Origin: a bacterium
Lineage (GTDB): Bacteria > Patescibacteriota > Gracilibacteria > Peribacterales > Peribacteraceae
Assembly (NCBI GenBank): GCA_029558515.1
Contig: JAKQEM010000039.1
Location: 34,412 to 98,411 of the forward strand
Reading direction: 5' to 3'
DNA length: 64,000 bases
A program made the position numbers and the translations under genes. The notes beneath the pieces are model-generated. The model worked only from the letters and a program-made list of their open reading frames with translations. It did not search any database and was not told the DNA's origin. Of the stretch, positions 51,371 through 62,269 are shown one piece after another. How positions within the stretch are numbered: the stretch's first letter is position 1; every line of letters starts with the position of its first letter.

Positions 51371-51457
51371 GGTAGTTCTCCGTGTTGATTGGCATTCTCA
51401 CAGTGAGTCACCATTCGTTGCTTGCTCATGCGAGCGCAGCGAGCGCGTGGTTCATGG

Positions 51458-51529
51458 CAGCCTCACGGGGAATCGAACCCCGATTTGCAGGATGAGAACC
51501 TGCTGTCCTAACCGTTAGACGATGAGGCC
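51458..51529 (-). tRNA. tRNA-Glu(CTC), CCA encoded
   Basis: GGCCTCA/TGAGGCT acceptor, anticodon arm GCAGG-TTCTCAT-CCTGC, T arm CGGGG-TTCGATT-CCCCG; CCA follows at 51455-51457. Confidence 0.93.
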
Positions 51530-51673: not shown

Positions 51674-52084
51674 TTAAGACCACATTCTAATAATTTTTTG
51701 GATTGTCTTCTTATGGTTTGCTTTTTTCAAATCACTCTCTGTGATTCTGAGCACTTTCCAGTTTGATTTTTTGAGTATTGAATTCACTTCATTATCTCTG
51801 GAAATGTTGCGCTCAATTTTTGGTATCCAGAATTTCCGGTTCGATTTGAATGTTCGTTTTTGTTTGTGCCAATCGGCTCCGTGCCAGAATGCGCTATCAA
51901 AAAATACTGCGATTTTTTTCCCTTTATGCCCCGCATCGGGATTGCCTGGTACGTTTTTCGGATGTTTGCGGAAACGCACTCCCGCAGTCTTTAACAATGC
52001 CCATCCCGTCTTTTCCAATTGAGTCTCTTTTCCTTTGATTCGCGACATAATATCACTGCGTTTTTCCTTGGAATATACGTCCAT
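51674..52084 (-). CDS. vsr: very short patch repair (Vsr) endonuclease
   Basis: MDVYSKEKRSDIMSRIKGKETQLEKTGWALLKTAGVRFRKHPKNVPGNPDAGHKGKKIAVFFDSAFWHG. Confidence 0.93.
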   Translation of the reverse strand: MDVYSKEKRSDIMSRIKGKETQLEKTGWALLKTAGVRFRKHPKNVPGNPDAGHKGKKIAVFFDSAFWHGADWHKQKRTFKSNRKFWIPKIERNISRDNEVNSILKKSNWKVLRITESDLKKANHKKTIQKIIRMWS

Positions 52085-52144
52085 GTTCGAATGGTACATC
52101 AGTTATCATTGTCATTGCATGGCAAGTCGGTCTATTCTCGGCGC

Positions 52145-52792
52145 ATGCCCGGAGCCAAGAAAAAATTGTTGGATTACTTTTTGGAGCATGTCGGCATTCC
52201 CCTTTCAAAAAATAATCTTGCGTCTGTTGCTTCAGTTCATGATTGGGCGCGTGTGATCAGAACGTTGAGACAGGAGGGGTGGGACATTATTTTGCTTGAG
52301 AACGGGGATTATGTATTGCGTTCGTCTCAAAAAAGCCATGGTCATCTGCGTGAGAAAATTGATCAAAAAACACGATATCGCATTCTCCAGCGCGATTATT
52401 CTACGTGTCAGCGATGTGGCAAAACAATTCAAGACGGTGTGAAACTTATGATCGATCATAAATTGCCGGTTGATTTCGGTGGTAAATCCGTTGATGAAAA
52501 CTTATGGGCTCTTTGTGCGGAATGTAATTTGGGAAAGAAACATTGGTTTACGGACAATGATCCGGAAGTGATGAAAAGAATTTTTGCATTGGACAGCGGT
52601 TATCAAAAATTGAAAGCGTATTTTGAATCTTATCCTAATGTATTGCTTCGTGTTTCAGACTTAAATTTTGTTTCGGGGATAAGAGATTGGGAGAGGACAT
52701 TGCGGCTGATAAGAAGAAAAGAGGGAATGAATATCGAATATATTTCAAATGATTCCACATCAGGAATGGAAGGGTATATGTACGTGACATGA
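52145..52792 (+). CDS. HNH endonuclease, putative type II restriction enzyme
   Basis: CQRCGKTIQDGVKLMIDHKLPVDFGGKSVDENLWALCAECNLGK; abuts methyltransferase. Confidence 0.85.
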   Translation: MPGAKKKLLDYFLEHVGIPLSKNNLASVASVHDWARVIRTLRQEGWDIILLENGDYVLRSSQKSHGHLREKIDQKTRYRILQRDYSTCQRCGKTIQDGVKLMIDHKLPVDFGGKSVDENLWALCAECNLGKKHWFTDNDPEVMKRIFALDSGYQKLKAYFESYPNVLLRVSDLNFVSGIRDWERTLRLIRRKEGMNIEYISNDSTSGMEGYMYVT

Positions 52793-53752
52793 TCAAGCAG
52801 CCAATGCCAATCGACGATTATCGATGGTCCATGTATCGAGAATCGCCACGTGTGGTTTTGTGATGAGCTGATTGACCAATGCTTTGCCTGTTTCATAGAT
52901 CGCATTCACCGCGACGCTGTTTCCGAGTTGTTTCATGGCTTGCACTTCGGTTACGGGAAATTCGAAATCATCGGGAAAGCCCATCATCTTCTTGCCTTCG
53001 TTCGGTTTGAGTGCTCGTACTTTCCCGTCCGCCAAATAACTGTCCCAGTTGCGACGGTCATGCAAACCGGATCCTCTGCCCCCCACACGCAGCGTGAACC
53101 CGATGCGTCGTGGGCAGGAAGCACCGAGAATGTCAGACATGGTCAATTGCAACGGAATCGGTTTCGGGAATTCGAATTTGAACGTACTTGGATCGACGAG
53201 GTCATCTCTGAAACCGATCATATAGACTCTTGGTCTGTGTGTGGGCAGGCCGAAATCGGATGCGCGAATCAGTTGATAATCAAAGGAATATCCCAAGCTG
53301 CGGAGCGTATTTTCAATGACTTCTATGGTTTTTCCATTATCATGTTTTGCGAGATTTCTGACATTTTCCAAGAAGAATGCTTTGGGTTTTTTCGTGTCGA
53401 TGATCTCAGCGATGTCGAAGAAAAGCGTGCCTCTCGTTTCCTCAAACCCTCGTTTGAATCCGGCTTGACTGAATGGTTGGCAGGGGAAGCCGGCACACAA
53501 CACATCGAAATTTTCGGGAATCATCGCTTTGTTTTCCGGTAATGTGATATCTCCCGTGAACATGCCGTTTTCAAACAATTCAGGATCGATTTTCTTGAAA
53601 TTATGTTCGTAAGTCTGGCGTGCGTGTTTATCCCATTCACTTGCATATACGCATTTTCCCCCCAGTCGGTGCATTGCAATGTGGAATCCTCCGATTCCTG
53701 CGAACAGATCGATGAATGTAAAACTGTGTTTCTTCCTTGTCAGGATCTTCAT
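52793..53752 (-). CDS. DNA (cytosine-5-)-methyltransferase
   Basis: FIDLFAGIGGFHIA, GFPCQPFSQAG, ENVRNL, MKQLGNSVAV. Confidence 0.93.
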   Translation of the reverse strand: MKILTRKKHSFTFIDLFAGIGGFHIAMHRLGGKCVYASEWDKHARQTYEHNFKKIDPELFENGMFTGDITLPENKAMIPENFDVLCAGFPCQPFSQAGFKRGFEETRGTLFFDIAEIIDTKKPKAFFLENVRNLAKHDNGKTIEVIENTLRSLGYSFDYQLIRASDFGLPTHRPRVYMIGFRDDLVDPSTFKFEFPKPIPLQLTMSDILGASCPRRIGFTLRVGGRGSGLHDRRNWDSYLADGKVRALKPNEGKKMMGFPDDFEFPVTEVQAMKQLGNSVAVNAIYETGKALVNQLITKPHVAILDTWTIDNRRLALAA

Positions 53753-53909
53753 GGTTGTAACCATAACAAATATGACGTTTGGGTGTCCATTTAATGATAA
53801 TGCAGCATTATACAATTATTGTCCGGTTGAACATTCGTACACTCATACCAAATAAATTACATAAAAATCTCATACATCTGAACTATTCGCGAGCATGTAC
53901 AATCCCTCC

Positions 53910-54374
53910 ATGCAGCGCATGACGCTCCTCTGCATCGGCGCGCTACGGGAATCTTGGGCCAAGGACGCGGCGCGGCTGTACCGCGAGCGGCTGGGCGCAT
54001 CGGTCGATCTGCGCGTGGTGGAGCTGCAGCAGAGCCGTCATCCGCATCCTGCAAAGCAGCGCGAGGAGGAGTCCGAGCGACTCTTGCTCTCTGCACGCAA
54101 GCAGCCGGGGGCGCTGTGGGCATTGGATGAAACGGGCGACGCACTGACTTCGCAGAAATTTGCCGCGGAGATCGGTGCGCTGCGCGATCGCGGGGAGGCG
54201 CTCACGATTCTCTTGGGTGGCAGCTACGGCCTCTCCGATGCGGTGCGCTCCGCAGCCCGTCGGGTGATCAGTCTCAGCGCCATGACGCTGCCTCATGAAC
54301 TCTGCCGCATCGTCTTTCTGGAGCAGCTCTACCGCGCGCAGGAAATCCTGAAAGGGAGCGGGTATCATCATTGA
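53910..54374 (+). CDS. rlmH: 23S rRNA (pseudouridine1915-N3)-methyltransferase
   Basis: LTILLGGSYGLSDAVR, ALDETGDALTSQKFA, C-terminal [28 protein letters not shown]. Confidence 0.93.
   Translation: MQRMTLLCIGALRESWAKDAARLYRERLGASVDLRVVELQQSRHPHPAKQREEESERLLLSARKQPGALWALDETGDALTSQKFAAEIGALRDRGEALTILLGGSYGLSDAVRSAARRVISLSAMTLPHELCRIVFLEQLYRAQEILKGSGYHH
54277..54374 (+). repeat. rlmH 3'-end repeat, copy 1 (within intact rlmH)
   Basis: 98 bp GCGCCATGACGCTG...GAAATCCTGAAAGGGAGCGGGTATCATCATTGA. Confidence 0.95.
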
Positions 54375-54465
54375 GTGAATATTGTTGCACCATAGGTGCG
54401 ATGCGTATGGCAGGCTTTTTGCTTTTTTCATTCGTTCTTCTGTGGTAGAATATGTCCATACCATG

Positions 54466-54487
54466 AAAAGGGATGCATGTCCCTTTT
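54466..54487 (+). other. RNA hairpin in leader of NYN gene
   Basis: AAAAGGGA-TGCATG-TCCCTTTT perfect 8-bp stem. Confidence 0.6.
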
Positions 54488-54490
54488 AGA

Positions 54491-54518
54491 GTCCGAGCAT
54501 TGCCTCGGGCTTTTTTTT
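54491..54518 (+). terminator. rho-independent terminator upstream of NYN gene
   Basis: GTCCGAG-CATTGC-CTCGGGC followed by TTTTTTTT. Confidence 0.8.
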
Positions 54519-54524
54519 GATACT

Positions 54525-55205
54525 ATGTGGAACGTGAGAAGTATGTTTTTCGTTGACGGCTTCAATCTCTATCATGCGATGGACAGAAATCCCGCCTATC
54601 GAAAATACAAATGGTTGAACTTGTCCGCTCTTGCCGAGGATTTGCTTGTGGGTCGTGATGAGACTGTGGCGCAGGTGTTGTATTTTACAGCGTATTGCAC
54701 TTGGGATCATGGAAAGAAGCAGCGACATAAGCAGTATGTGGAAGCGCTCACCAAGTATGGAGTGCATGTGGTACCGGGGAAGTTCAGTCCGGTTACCAAA
54801 CGATTCAATAAGCACACGATGCGTATCACGGATATGGCTCCGGTCGTCACTGAGCTTTCCGTGTTACCTGATGAGATCACCTTTCAGACCAATGAAGAGA
54901 AGAGAACTGACGTGAACCTTGCGACGAAAATTGTGGACTATGCCTATCAGGACAAATATGACCATGCCTATATCGTGTCTGCGGATGGGGATATTGCTCC
55001 GGCAATCGAGGTTGCACAATCCAGATTCCCACATAAGAAATTTACCGCTGTCATTCCCATAGGACTCTCCGGGCAGTACATATGCAAGATATGCGATTTC
55101 AATGTCATGAAAATTGAAGAGCGTCATCTTCAAAAATCGCAACTTCCCGATCCTGTTGTGATCAATGCGTCCAGAAGTATTTGTAAACCGTCATTGTGGA
55201 CGTAG
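54525..55205 (+). CDS. NYN domain (PIN-like, LabA/DUF88-type) putative ribonuclease
   Basis: [13 protein letters not shown]...[51 protein letters not shown]. Confidence 0.85.
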
Positions 55206-55214
55206 CAAAACTTT

Positions 55215-55312
55215 GCGCCATGACCCTCCCTCACGAACTCTGCCGCATCGTCTTTCTGGAGCAGCTCTACCGCGCGCAGGAAATTTTGAAGAGGAGCGGG
55301 TATCATCACTAA
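55215..55312 (+). repeat. rlmH 3'-end repeat, copy 2
   Basis: 98 bp, same length as copy 1, 9 mismatches; encodes [31 protein letters not shown]-stop. Confidence 0.95.
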
Positions 55313-55348
55313 AGGAATCATCGATGGATGTCGTATCCTGTTGTATTC

Positions 55349-55639
55349 CTAGTGTCCGCAGCCGCATCCGCCGCCGCCGTGCATACCGCATCCCCCACCC
55401 ATGGCACCGTCCGCCATCCACTCTCCGTTCGGCATGAAGTGGCCGCCCGCGGGAGCCGCTTGTTGATCCTGTGCCGCCACGTTTGCATTGGCGAATCGGG
55501 CGTTCACTCTTCCTGCGGGTCCGACTTCCCATCCTGAGAGAAGGTAGAGCCCCGCAACGATCGCCATGCCCCAGAAGATGGATTCCGCTTTCGGCATCGG
55601 CGTTATCATACCTCCACCGGAGGTGTTGGGAAAGTACAA
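55349..55639 (-). CDS. small membrane-anchored Gly/Cys/His-rich protein
   Basis: AESIFWGMAIVAGLYLLSG TM segment, C-terminal GGGCGMHGGGGCGCGH. Confidence 0.5.
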   Translation of the reverse strand: MYFPNTSGGGMITPMPKAESIFWGMAIVAGLYLLSGWEVGPAGRVNARFANANVAAQDQQAAPAGGHFMPNGEWMADGAMGGGCGMHGGGGCGCGH

Positions 55640-55704
55640 ATCGGGGCTGCTCTCGCTGAGGGATGTTCACTGCCATCGATGACGAGGGGCAGGATCTGAG
55701 ATCG

Positions 55705-55745
55705 AGCGCGCCCACGAAATCCTGAAGGGCAGCGGGTATCATCAC
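55705..55745 (+). repeat. rlmH 3'-end repeat, copy 3 (truncated)
   Basis: GAGCGCGCCCACGAAATCCTGAAGGGCAGCGGGTATCATCACT. Confidence 0.85.
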
Positions 55746-55789
55746 TGTTTCTTTTCTCCGATCATACGGGAAGGTGTAACATATGAGGC

Positions 55790-55957
55790 ATGCAAAAAAT
55801 TCACGTTGAACAGCACTCCTTCACCGGCGGCATGTGGTTTGCGCTCTGGCTCTTCACCATCGGGTTTCTGCAGCTCTCGTTCTGGAAGGGCGTTCTGGCA
55901 GTCGTGCTGTGGCCGTATTTTTTGGGAGTGGCGGTGCGAGCAATGGCGGCGGCATAG
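55790..55957 (+). CDS. small hypothetical membrane protein (55 aa)
   Basis: MQKIHVEQHSFTGGMWFALWLFTIGFLQLSFWKGVLAVVLWPYFLGVAVRAMAAA; below the ORF-track length limit. Confidence 0.5.
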   Translation: MQKIHVEQHSFTGGMWFALWLFTIGFLQLSFWKGVLAVVLWPYFLGVAVRAMAAA

Positions 55958-57848: not shown

Positions 57849-60800
57849 TTATTCCTGCACGATGGCGGTCGTGTTGCCGCTCGTGCCGGTGACATTGACC
57901 GTTGATGTCGTATTCGCGGTTCCTGTCGCATCGGCAGATTGATTGCCTCCTCCCGTCTGCGTGACCGCGGTGTCATTGAGCGATGCGGCATCCTGTGAGG
58001 CGTCGATGGCCGTGGTCGCATCGTCGGTGACGTCCGCCGTTTGATTGCTCTGATCTCCGCTGCCGGTCTGTTCCACCGTCGTCTCGTTGGTGGCATCACC
58101 CGTGACGTTCTGCTCGGCCTGCGTATCCGCATTGAGATCGACTTCCGTGTACTGCGCGCACACGCTCATGTCTACCGTGCACGTCTGGAAGACGGTCGTT
58201 GTGTTCGCCGCCGCAGCATCCTGCGCCGCGTTTACGTCCGTCGCAGCCGTGTTCTCGACGACGGCATCCTGATTGGCTTGGTCGCCATCCCCGCCGTCCT
58301 GGCTGACATCGGTGGTGTTTCCTGACGTACCCGCGACGTTCTGATCAGCCGTCGTGGACGCAACCGGAATGACGTAGAAGTATTGAGCACACGCTCCCTG
58401 CGTCACGTCGCATTCCTGGATGATGTCCACGAGGTTTTCAGAGGCGGCGTTCTGGTCCGCGCTGACTTGCGTGTCCGCATCGGCGTCGATGGTCGCATCC
58501 TGATTGGCTTGGTCGCCGTCCCCGCCGTCCTGGCTGATGCCGGAGAGGTTGCCGGATGTTCCCGACACGTCCTGGCTCGCCGCAGTCGTCGCTACCGGAG
58601 CGACTTCACCGGCCTGCGCCACCGCGCCGTGATCGGCGGTCGCGCTCTGCTGCAGAGTGATGACATTGGTCGCGGTCGAATCCTGTCCGGCCTGCACATC
58701 CGTGGAGGCCGCCGCATCGATGCCCGCGTCTTGGTTGGTTTGCTCCCCGCCTTCCGCGTTCTGCTCGATGCCCGAGATGTTGCCCGCATCACCCGAGACG
58801 TCCTGCACGGCCGCCACACCGGCGACCGGTGCGATCATCACCCACTGTGCGCCCGCGCCGTGATCGATGTCCTGTTCCTGGGAGGCGTCGACGACGTTGA
58901 CGGCTGCCGCCGTCTGCTCGGCTCCGACGTTCGTCGAAGCGTCCGCCGTACTGTCTGCCGCTTGGTTCGCGTCGCCGTCTTCCGCGTTCTGCGCGATGCC
59001 CGAGATATTGCCGGACTGTCCCGATACCTGCTGCACCGCCACCGCCTGCGCCGTCGGATCGATGATCATCGATTGCGCGCCCGCTCCGTGATCCACCTCC
59101 GCTTCCTGGTTGGCGGTGATGTCGTTGAGAGCGATGACGCCCTGCAGTGCCGCGACCGTGCTCTCGCTGTCACTTCCCATCTCCGCATCTTGATTGTGCG
59201 CACCGTCCCCGTCCGCGTTCTGTCCGATGCCTGAGACAATGACGGACGCGCCATTGGCCGCCTGGACGCCGGTTGCATCGCTCGCGGCGTCGATATCCAA
59301 GGACTGAGCCACCGAGCCCGCATCGGCGTCGGCGGACTGGCTGACGTCCGCTGCATTGGTGGAGACGATCTCTTGTTCCGCGTCCACCGTCGCAGCGCTG
59401 TCATTGACCATGTCTGCGTTCTGGTTGGTTCCGCTCGCCTCCTGCTCGATGATGGCTCCGATCATCGAGACCCCGCCGACGATCTGCGTGCCGTTTGCGG
59501 AGCTGTCCAGCGCCACGGTCGCATTTTGATTGCCTTGGTCGCCGTCATTGACTTGCTCCAGATCGGCGACGTTGAAGGAGACAGCGGCTTGATCCGCACT
59601 CACGTCGACACTGCCGTCGTTGTTTGCCGTCGCCTGTTGGTTGATGTCGCCGTCTCCGCTCGCGCTCTGTCCCGCCGCCAGCACGACGACCGATGTGCCG
59701 TCGATCACTTGCACGCCGCTCGCTTCGCTGTCGGCGGCGACGGCCGCCTGCTGATTCCCCTGATCGCCGCCATTTTCTTGCGAAGCATCGATGATGTTGA
59801 ACGAGAGCACCGATTGCGCGCCGTCGACCTCCGTTTCGCTGTCATTCTCCAGGTCCATGTTCTGGTTGGCGCTCCCGTCGGTATCGGCTGTCTGGGCGGC
59901 ATCCACCAGGACCACGGAATCACCCGTGAGCACCTGCAGGCCCTCGGCGTCGCTTTCCGCCGCGATGTCCGCCAACTGGTTGCTGCTCTCGCCGCCCTCC
60001 TGTGCCAGTCCGATCTCATTGAAGGAAACCACGGACTGGTCGCCGTTGATGTCCGTCCCTGCGGATTGCTCCGCGTCCATCGCTTGATTGGCAGATCCAT
60101 CGCCGCTGCTGTCCTGGCTCAAATCTGCGATGACGGTCGAGTCGCCGGTGACGACTTGCACGCCGGTTGCCAGCGCATTGGCGATGACGTTTGCCACCTG
60201 ATTGCACTGTCCGTTGCAGGTTTGCAGAACGGTCAGGATGTTCATGGATGTGAGCTGCTGCAGCGTGTCGATGAATGTATTGGCGTTGAAGATGTTGGTA
60301 ATGTACTGATTGGTCGGCCCGCCGCTTGCAGTTTGCGCGGTCGATCCGATGGCGCTCGCCGCGCCCGCGATCACCACCACGCCGTCTCCGTCGGCATCCG
60401 CTTGCGTGTCCGCCAGTTGGTTTGCTTGGTCACCGTCACTTTCCTGCTTCGCCGTCAGAATATTGAGCGTCGCTCCCACTGCCGCCATCTCCACGTCTGT
60501 CTCCGCATCGGCGGCCGCATCGGCATCCTGATTGGCCGGTCCGTCGCCGTTTGATTCCTGCGCGATGTCCGTCATGCTCTGCGCCGTCGTATCCGCCGCG
60601 AGTCCCAGGAGCAGATCGGCATCGAGCCCGCCGGTCATTTCCTGATTGCTCTGCTCTGCGGCAGCCGTCTGCGTGGCATCCACAGCGTTGTCCGCCGTCA
60701 GATCGCCGTCGACCGCCAGCACCGCATCGGCATCGGTCGCCGCATCCGCTTCCTGGTTGGCGGCCTCCTCATCCGCTTCCTGCGTGACGGTCGCTCCATT

Positions 60801-61001
60801 CTGCGAGAGGGACGTGAACCCGGCGAACACACTGGTCACCGCCGACGTTCCCATGTCCATGAGTTGATTCATGAAGGGGGCGGCTCCCGCGCCGCTCACC
60901 CAAAAGAAAAGAGAGGCAACCGTTACCGTTGCCGAGATCCGGATGATCCGGGCCGATGATGTGTGTGGGGAGAACGCTCTCCCCGTGTTCGGAGTGGGCA
61001 T
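57849..61001 (-). CDS. large secreted Q/N-rich repeat protein (~1050 aa)
   Basis: N-terminal signal-like segment (RIIRISATVTVASLFFWVSGAGA), then repeats of the form Q-x(3-5)-G-D-x-x-NQ; ATG at 61001. Confidence 0.85.
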   Translation of the reverse strand: MPTPNTGRAFSPHTSSARIIRISATVTVASLFFWVSGAGAAPFMNQLMDMGTSAVTSVFAGFTSLSQNGATVTQEADEEAANQEADAATDADAVLAVDGDLTADNAVDATQTAAAEQSNQEMTGGLDADLLLGLAADTTAQSMTDIAQESNGDGPANQDADAAADAETDVEMAAVGATLNILTAKQESDGDQANQLADTQADADGDGVVVIAGAASAIGSTAQTASGGPTNQYITNIFNANTFIDTLQQLTSMNILTVLQTCNGQCNQVANVIANALATGVQVVTGDSTVIADLSQDSSGDGSANQAMDAEQSAGTDINGDQSVVSFNEIGLAQEGGESSNQLADIAAESDAEGLQVLTGDSVVLVDAAQTADTDGSANQNMDLENDSETEVDGAQSVLSFNIIDASQENGGDQGNQQAAVAADSEASGVQVIDGTSVVVLAAGQSASGDGDINQQATANNDGSVDVSADQAAVSFNVADLEQVNDGDQGNQNATVALDSSANGTQIVGGVSMIGAIIEQEASGTNQNADMVNDSAATVDAEQEIVSTNAADVSQSADADAGSVAQSLDIDAASDATGVQAANGASVIVSGIGQNADGDGAHNQDAEMGSDSESTVAALQGVIALNDITANQEAEVDHGAGAQSMIIDPTAQAVAVQQVSGQSGNISGIAQNAEDGDANQAADSTADASTNVGAEQTAAAVNVVDASQEQDIDHGAGAQWVMIAPVAGVAAVQDVSGDAGNISGIEQNAEGGEQTNQDAGIDAAASTDVQAGQDSTATNVITLQQSATADHGAVAQAGEVAPVATTAASQDVSGTSGNLSGISQDGGDGDQANQDATIDADADTQVSADQNAASENLVDIIQECDVTQGACAQYFYVIPVASTTADQNVAGTSGNTTDVSQDGGDGDQANQDAVVENTAATDVNAAQDAAAANTTTVFQTCTVDMSVCAQYTEVDLNADTQAEQNVTGDATNETTVEQTGSGDQSNQTADVTDDATTAIDASQDAASLNDTAVTQTGGGNQSADATGTANTTSTVNVTGTSGNTTAIVQE

Positions 61002-61279
61002 AACGGGTGAAAAGAAAGGAAGTACAAAACAAGGTAGGTGACGTGCCTTCCCCGTTGCTCTTACGAATCTTTCGGACGTTTCGCCTTTTGGTTTGTCGTT
61101 CACCTTGGTTCATTTTTGACGGAGACCATGAGAAGGACCGTGCGTCGCGCATATTTTCGAAGGATGCGCAGAAATATTGTTGGCTTTTCTGTCATGGCTC
61201 TGCCGCTTTGGCGTCTCCGCATGACGTGAGGCGCGTTTGCCGCCTCCATTCCTTTTATCCCTCTTTCCCACCTTTCTCT

Positions 61280-62269
61280 ATGATGCGTGCACACATACGC
61301 AATCGGTTGGCCGCGAAGGCGGTCTCCGCGGCGGCGAGCATCGCGCTCGTCCTTTCAGTATCGGCGCCGGGCATCGCTGCCGCCGCCGGCAATCAAACAT
61401 CGGGTCTCAGCGTGTCATCTTGGACCGTCATCCAGGCGCTCCTGGGAGGTTTGTCCATGAATGCGCAGGTCATCGGTCAGCAGGGCGACGAGGACATGAA
61501 TAATCAGGAGGCGGATGTCGGTCAGGAGGCGGATCTGAACGTGGAATTGTCGGGTGCGGTCGACGCCACCAATGCCACCGAGGTGGAACAGGAGGCCGAT
61601 GATGACGATCAGGCCAATCAGGAGTCCGAGGCGGAAGTGGAAGCCGGCCTTTCCTTCGGCGCGCTCGTCGAGGCGCTGCTCTCCAATGTAGGCGAAGTCG
61701 AACAGGAGGCCGGGGGTGATCAGAACAATCAGGAGGTCGCTGTCGATCAAGAGGGGGAGAGCGACGTCGCACTCGACGCGGAAGCGGAAGCATCCAACGA
61801 TTTTTCCGTTGCACAGGATGCAAACGATGCGGAGCAGACCAATCAGGAAAGTGATGCCGCCGTTGCCGCCGAGATTGACATCGAAGCCATGGTTGACGCC
61901 GTGCTGACCAATGCAAGTTCCGTGGAGCAAGCTGCGGACGGTGAGCAGAACAATCAAGCGGCCGACGTCGGGCAATCGGGCGAGCAGGACGTAGAGTCAT
62001 CCATCGATGCGGCGGCGGAGAATGAAGTGGAAGTCGTGCAGGAAGGCGGCGGCGATCAGAGCAATCAGGAGTCGGCGCTCGAGGTGGATGCAGCGGCCGA
62101 AGTGGCGTCCACGGTCGAATCTGCGGTGGTGAATGCCTCCGAAGTGTCGCAGGAGGACGGGGGTGATCAGGGCAATCAGGCGGCTGCCGTCTCGCAGAGC
62201 GCGAGCAACACCGTCACGTCCAGCATCACCGCGACGAGCGGCAACACCGTTTCCGTCACGCAGGAGTAA
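61280..62269 (+). CDS. secreted Q/N-rich repeat protein (~330 aa), divergent paralogue
   Basis: Signal-like AAKAVSAAASIALVLSVSAPGIAAA; repeats VEQEAGGDQNNQ, VVQEGGGDQSNQ, VSQEDGGDQGNQ. Confidence 0.85.
   Translation: MMRAHIRNRLAAKAVSAAASIALVLSVSAPGIAAAAGNQTSGLSVSSWTVIQALLGGLSMNAQVIGQQGDEDMNNQEADVGQEADLNVELSGAVDATNATEVEQEADDDDQANQESEAEVEAGLSFGALVEALLSNVGEVEQEAGGDQNNQEVAVDQEGESDVALDAEAEASNDFSVAQDANDAEQTNQESDAAVAAEIDIEAMVDAVLTNASSVEQAADGEQNNQAADVGQSGEQDVESSIDAAAENEVEVVQEGGGDQSNQESALEVDAAAEVASTVESAVVNASEVSQEDGGDQGNQAAAVSQSASNTVTSSITATSGNTVSVTQE

Follow-up and report, generated by a model that had tools for sequence, protein, structure and literature searches.

The window analysed here is a 64,000-nucleotide stretch of DNA from an uncultured, ultra-small bacterium (Candidatus Peribacteria), represented by a metagenome-type genome of 49 contigs. 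It carries an intact rlmH gene, and the 3′ end of this gene occurs three times on one strand (+), with cargo in the intervals. The features at and around this array are as follows.

51455-51529, minus strand: tRNA-Glu (ctc), adjoining the Vsr/HNH/Dcm cluster
51674-52099, minus strand: Vsr, in a restriction-modification-type cluster 5′ of rlmH
52019-52792, plus strand: HNH endonuclease, same cluster
52793-53815, minus strand: Dcm methylase, same cluster
53895-54374, plus strand: intact rlmH, 159 aa (PF02590, E 1e-40; NCBIfam RlmH models)
54277-54374, plus strand: copy 1, the last 98 bp of rlmH itself (repeat search)
54455-54519, plus strand: two tandem hairpins followed by a T-run, an attenuator/terminator-like leader of the NYN gene (MFE -28 kcal/mol, z -3.2)
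54543-55205, plus strand: cargo 1, NYN-domain protein, 220 aa (Pfam NYN, 1e-10; PADLOC HEC-09, 2.2e-42)
55215-55312, plus strand: copy 2 of the rlmH 3′ end, 98 bp, with frame and stop codon retained (repeat search)
55349-55639, minus strand: cargo 2, 96-aa protein with one hydrophobic segment and a Gly/Cys/His-rich tail (ORF list)
55699-55747, plus strand: copy 3 of the rlmH 3′ end, recognisable over 41-49 bp, stop codon missing (sequence, repeat and pattern search)
55790-55957, plus strand: p57, small membrane-protein-like ORF of 55 aa, accessory and patchily distributed

The first ATG-initiated ORF of rlmH begins at 53895 (the first-pass annotation had set the start of the array at 53910). 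Copy 2 is 92.6% identical to the rlmH end over 94 bp, or 89% over 104 bp in the repeat search, and was picked up independently with the Pfam rlmH model (E 1e-10). Copy 3 is recognisable from 55699 or 55705 to 55745-55747, with 84% identity over 49 bp. All three ends terminate in AGCGGGTATCATCA(T/C)T; the stop codon is TAA in copy 2 and is lost in copy 3 (CACTGT). A whole-genome pattern search with the 19-bp rlmH end returned only these three sites at 0-1 mismatch, and the reversed-pattern control returned none. The directly oriented triplication described in the first-pass annotation is thus confirmed by sequence, repeat and whole-genome pattern searches; the three rlmH 3′ ends are real and do not reflect chance similarity. 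The same scan, applied to 369 ORFs in 453 kb of the window genome, revealed no other gene followed by a solo copy of its 3′ end (hereafter referred to as a stub), the further high-scoring pairs having the appearance of tandem paralogues or repetitive sequence.

The intervals hold unrelated cargo, as had been reported, namely the NYN gene and the 96-aa ORF. The NYN gene, which ends about 10 bp before copy 2, is probably a candidate anti-phage gene of the PADLOC family HEC-09, as judged from its profile match. Its closest homologue, 71% identical, is found in another genome (G222) with a similar two-hairpin leader: the aligned region is retained before the homologue, and the palindrome of the first hairpin is conserved with changes on both arms. 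The leader matched no Rfam family at its cut-off, and the Rfam matches in the window lay far below gathering scores. Possibly it is an attenuator, or a self-cleavage site of the RNase-like NYN protein. G222 has no detectable rlmH, nor was rlmH found in any of the five genomes of genus g35 (G034 and G222-G225), although most of the family has the gene. Cargo 2 has no match in Pfam, PADLOC or NCBIfam. To the right of the array, p57 was considered as an ancestral neighbour; its orientation differs in G013 and G016, and we treat it as an accessory gene. Clear matches to it occur in 8 of the 74 family genomes, and in four of these the match lies less than 7 kb from rlmH or an rlmH stub.

The three ends differ from one another in the manner of alleles. 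By hand count, copy 2 differs from rlmH by seven synonymous changes and one non-synonymous change, and copy 3 by four and one, respectively. Neutral decay of junk sequence would be expected to yield about three quarters non-synonymous changes, a model under which the binomial probabilities of the observed counts are 5e-4 for copy 2 and 0.018 for copy 3. Because the differences are almost exclusively synonymous, one of the window copies is a foreign allele rather than a decayed duplicate, and the excess of synonymous changes indicates that the copies separated mostly while serving as functional gene ends in different genomes and came together later.

We searched for similar arrangements in 74 genomes of the family and in 353 genomes of the class (one genome per species; 274 with rlmH), all of them assemblies, in which stubs shorter than about 20 aa are detectable by motif only. 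Extra rlmH 3′ ends were found in two other family genomes of the 74 (G216 and G198) and, in the class search, in G145. In G216, rlmH ends in YHH-stop, whereas it ends in YHHA-stop in all four congeners (G028, G215, G217 and G218), where the ATPase gene directly follows rlmH and the site is empty. The G216 gene is followed by 660 bp with a 187-aa ORF and then, at the contig end, by a 19-bp stub flanked by sequence similar to the family flank; another contig of this genome (C14) begins with at least 62 bp of an rlmH end, followed by the ATPase gene of the congeners. Both displaced ends, the one behind the cargo and the one at the start of C14, code for YHHA-stop. In G198, 26 bp separate rlmH from a 48-bp stub behind it, a second stub of 150 bp is located on a different contig, and the tRNA-Glu gene lies about 0.75 kb further from rlmH than in the congeners G199 and G200. 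Some of the G198 and G216 stubs thus sit on separate contigs. No deletion of recipient DNA was seen beside the insertions at G216 or G198 in comparison with their congeners. The empty or variable sites that the first-pass annotation had proposed to look for are therefore present among relatives, the comparison covering congeners of G216 and G198 rather than of the window genome, and these empty sites support the notion that DNA was inserted with displacement of the gene end.

The third genome, G145, belongs to another family and reads TGA as Gly. Its 63-bp stub, with three mismatches, lies 2.06 kb behind rlmH on the same contig. All three differences are non-synonymous, such that the allele pattern is not seen there. 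The cargo is an M3 peptidase gene that continues into the stub in another reading frame and terminates there; the product is without roughly 20 C-terminal residues that the neighbouring paralogue has. Thus, the join cut the cargo gene. Taken together, the left borders define stubs of 98 and 49 bp in the window, 48 and 150 bp in G198, 19 and at least 62 bp in G216, and 63 bp in G145. Two further candidates were set aside: the short rlmH of G211 is an assembly gap of Ns, and a weak match in G299, possibly a third fragment, falls short of the gene end. As a separate observation, G194 has, in comparison with its congener G032, a 515-bp insert with a single gene (L221, 6944-7460) immediately after the stop codon of rlmH, and no stub accompanies it.

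To assess how far the footprint is peculiar to rlmH, we applied a protein-level test to the ORFs surrounding rlmH in about 62 family genomes and to parts of the window genome. For rlmH, 2 of 62 loci had such a stub, as against 3 of about 1240 other genes (p 0.02, post hoc). Two of the three non-rlmH stubs are clear. In G028, acs (L034, 690-2777, minus strand) has a displaced stub with 88% identity and mostly synonymous differences, with a small lipoprotein-like ORF between; in G002, a transferase gene has a 59-bp stub that is 100% identical (L049, 7562-7620 and 8252-8310). The footprint is therefore not specific to rlmH. More than one rlmH stub occurs in each of three genomes, and these results suggest that rlmH is an insertion hot spot, hit oftener than other genes.

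In our interpretation, to which we assign a probability of roughly 55%, foreign DNA was captured immediately behind rlmH in at least two successive events, of which the array is the footprint; each event would have used homology within the gene on one side and non-homologous closure on the other. The imported DNA would bring the rlmH 3′ end of a relative together with unrelated downstream DNA. The resident rlmH would recombine with it through the homology in the gene, giving a whole gene with the donor's end; the other side would be joined, with no homology involved, just upstream of the resident stop codon, leaving the old 3′ end as a stub behind the cargo. Repetition of this cycle would build the stacked array in the order of events proposed here. 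The reaction may have been one-sided, like homology-facilitated illegitimate recombination (HFIR), or a single crossover, and the DNA may have been taken up by natural transformation. The window genome encodes a protein of the ComEC family (PF03772, 6.7e-52; contig C32), and Com-dependent (ComEC) transformation has been demonstrated in one Patescibacterium, a Saccharibacterium (PMC10633639). The cargo, a candidate defence gene, may be what was selected.

The comparison systems are HFIR and insertion-duplication as described for foreign DNA taken up by Streptococcus pneumoniae, Acinetobacter baylyi and Pseudomonas stutzeri, and the single crossovers of E. coli, in a study that defines HFIR and recovered gene-end duplications from such crossovers (PMC3240628). 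HFIR shares with the events proposed here a foreign insert of about a kilobase, homology on one side and closure without homology on the opposite side. Duplication of part of a gene end is common to the E. coli single crossovers and the present array. The homologous join with a donor allele is apparent here in the near-synonymous divergence and in the YHH-stop and YHHA-stop ends of G216, and the non-homologous join is seen in G145 only. The differences are that the stub here is a diverged allele, that events stack at one gene and that no deletion is seen in G216 or G198. Since recipient DNA is usually lost, and not duplicated, in classical HFIR (PMC3240628), the array resembles HFIR by mechanism and is not a strict member of the class. 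The preference for rlmH over other genes, the lack of deletion in G216 and G198, the non-synonymous pattern of G145 and the placing of some G198 and G216 stubs on separate contigs count against an HFIR-like capture.

Little is known about gene gain in Patescibacteria, whose genomes are small and most of which are uncultured. If the capture of imported DNA is the correct reading, gene-end stubs are a readable footprint of it, one that preserves the cargo alongside both the earlier and the later allele, so that the donors, order and rate of gene gain could be derived from genomes alone.

Among the alternatives, site-specific integration at the rlmH 3′ end, by a recombinase acting in trans or since lost, is possible but in our judgement doubtful. 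The attP of such an element could carry the rlmH 3′ end and restore the gene, as at icd/e14, or, in the manner of SCC/ECC, the reaction could cut at the last codons. In agreement with this explanation, insertions recur and stack at one gene end and leave the gene intact, the right border is invariably at the stop codon, small patchy genes such as p57 recur beside rlmH, and a 19-bp stub in G216 would fit an SCC-like core. The left borders, however, differ nearly everywhere, the cargo gene of G145 is truncated at the border, and other genes bear the footprint. At icd-type sites (E. coli e14 and phage 21), the incoming DNA supplies a synonymous-variant 3′ end and the target gene stays whole. The likeness lies in the displacement of the old gene end and in the keeping of the target whole by an incoming variant end; there, however, a single integrase uses one crossover point, whereas the crossover points in the present case are variable and lack a linked integrase.

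The first-pass annotation had taken the locus for a stacked array of SCC-like cassettes with no visible recombinase. Insertion, displacement of the gene end and stacking are supported; an SCC-like cassette moved by a recombinase is not, because the borders vary where a fixed att core should keep them constant, and the truncated G145 cargo and the acs and transferase footprints likewise speak against it. Like the array in the window, SCC/SCCmec and ECC are inserted at the 3′ end of rlmH, have direct repeats that finish in its last codons, stack and carry variable cargo. They differ in that the present array is without ccr genes and without a constant att length, in that the window inserts are well under 1 kb, and in that genes other than rlmH bear the same footprint. 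The att motif of SCC/ECC, TATCATAA, and its counterpart here, TATCATCA, both code for the conserved RlmH C-terminus; the shared TATCAT motif is hence expected and proves nothing. Targeting of rlmH by Ccr outside staphylococci has already been published for the Enterococcus ECC (PMC6222049). That Peribacteria and related Patescibacteria possess an rlmH-end cassette system convergent with SCC/ECC, with small single-gene (defence) cassettes and a recombinase encoded elsewhere in the genome, seems to us more doubtful still. If the rlmH end has been hit independently in two families of Patescibacteria, in staphylococci and in enterococci, this would point to a general attraction or to an unknown recombinase.

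We found no recombinase gene between or beside the window repeats, as had been noted before, and none linked to any rlmH copy. The window genome does contain five PF07508 matches (large serine recombinases, LSRs) and two tyrosine recombinases, which could act from a distance. Four of its LSRs score 52-104 bits at best against Ccr models with cut-offs of 700-900, so that the search for a Ccr-like enzyme proposed earlier yielded none, and by these scores its serine recombinases are not Ccr orthologues. Of these four, two end next to tRNA genes, and the rlmH-end motif is absent near all four in the stretch searched. The tyrosine recombinases lie at C38:541 and on C24, away from the restored rlmH end; the former, a protein of 277 aa at the start of the window's contig (L084, 226-1053 of C38), is integron-integrase-like (217 bits, cut-off 265) and has homologues of 78% identity in G201 and of 49-55% in about 12 other family genomes. 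LSRs located 1-12 kb from rlmH, or on a stub-starting contig, in G003, G200, G216 and G217 were rejected as the missing recombinase; the LSR ORFs of G003 and G216 run into or abut tRNA genes, and that of G200 lies in a prophage-like block beyond tRNA-Glu. A core match with three mismatches on C43, 1.4 kb from an LSR, falls inside a methylase ORF and is attributed to chance. No viral contig encoding an rlmH C-terminal fragment of this family was found; the phage and plasmid matches to the RlmH C-terminus look like host genes or host contigs present as contamination, the few annotated ones being rlmH/ybeA. LSR genes were observed near rlmH in several Peribacteria (L044, L215 and L227), located at tRNA genes, tRNA-Glu among them, or within prophage-like blocks.

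Campbell-type integration, in which small circles carrying a piece of a relative's rlmH 3′ end enter by a single crossover, we consider unlikely. It would yield the same product, namely a restored gene, cargo and a partial gene end, but the homology available on the circles would be only 19-150 bp long and partly diverged, which is short for RecA-mediated recombination, and no such circle was found. In the conjugation experiments of one study, gene-end duplications were nevertheless the usual result (PMC3240628).

Local tandem duplication of the gene end within one lineage, followed by decay and unrelated insertions, is very improbable. The direct orientation of all copies, the degraded state of copy 3 and the non-synonymous differences in G145 would be accounted for in this way; the nearly all-synonymous differences in the window would not, and the sequence behind copies 2 and 3 is no duplicate of the DNA downstream of rlmH, while the resident and displaced ends of G216 show different allele features. 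An assembly chimera joining rlmH ends of different strains is scarcely credible even for a metagenome-type genome of 49 contigs, and even though contig ends coincide with a stub in G216, because the same architecture recurs in four unrelated assemblies (inside long contigs in the window genome and G145), and extra rlmH 3′ ends in three other genomes of the class make a single assembly error, which the first-pass annotation had allowed for, unlikely.

The 5′ side of rlmH has changed as well. The Vsr/HNH/Dcm cluster, low in G+C, lies between an MFS gene and rlmH, outside the repeat array, to which it provides context. In family genomes an rlmD-like gene usually adjoins rlmH, and both flanks of rlmH have therefore gained genes. 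Further to the right, at 57849-62269, two large Ala/Asp/Gln/Asn-rich proteins are encoded on opposite strands, with NQ motifs and regular repeats about 75-77 codons apart; they are probably surface proteins.
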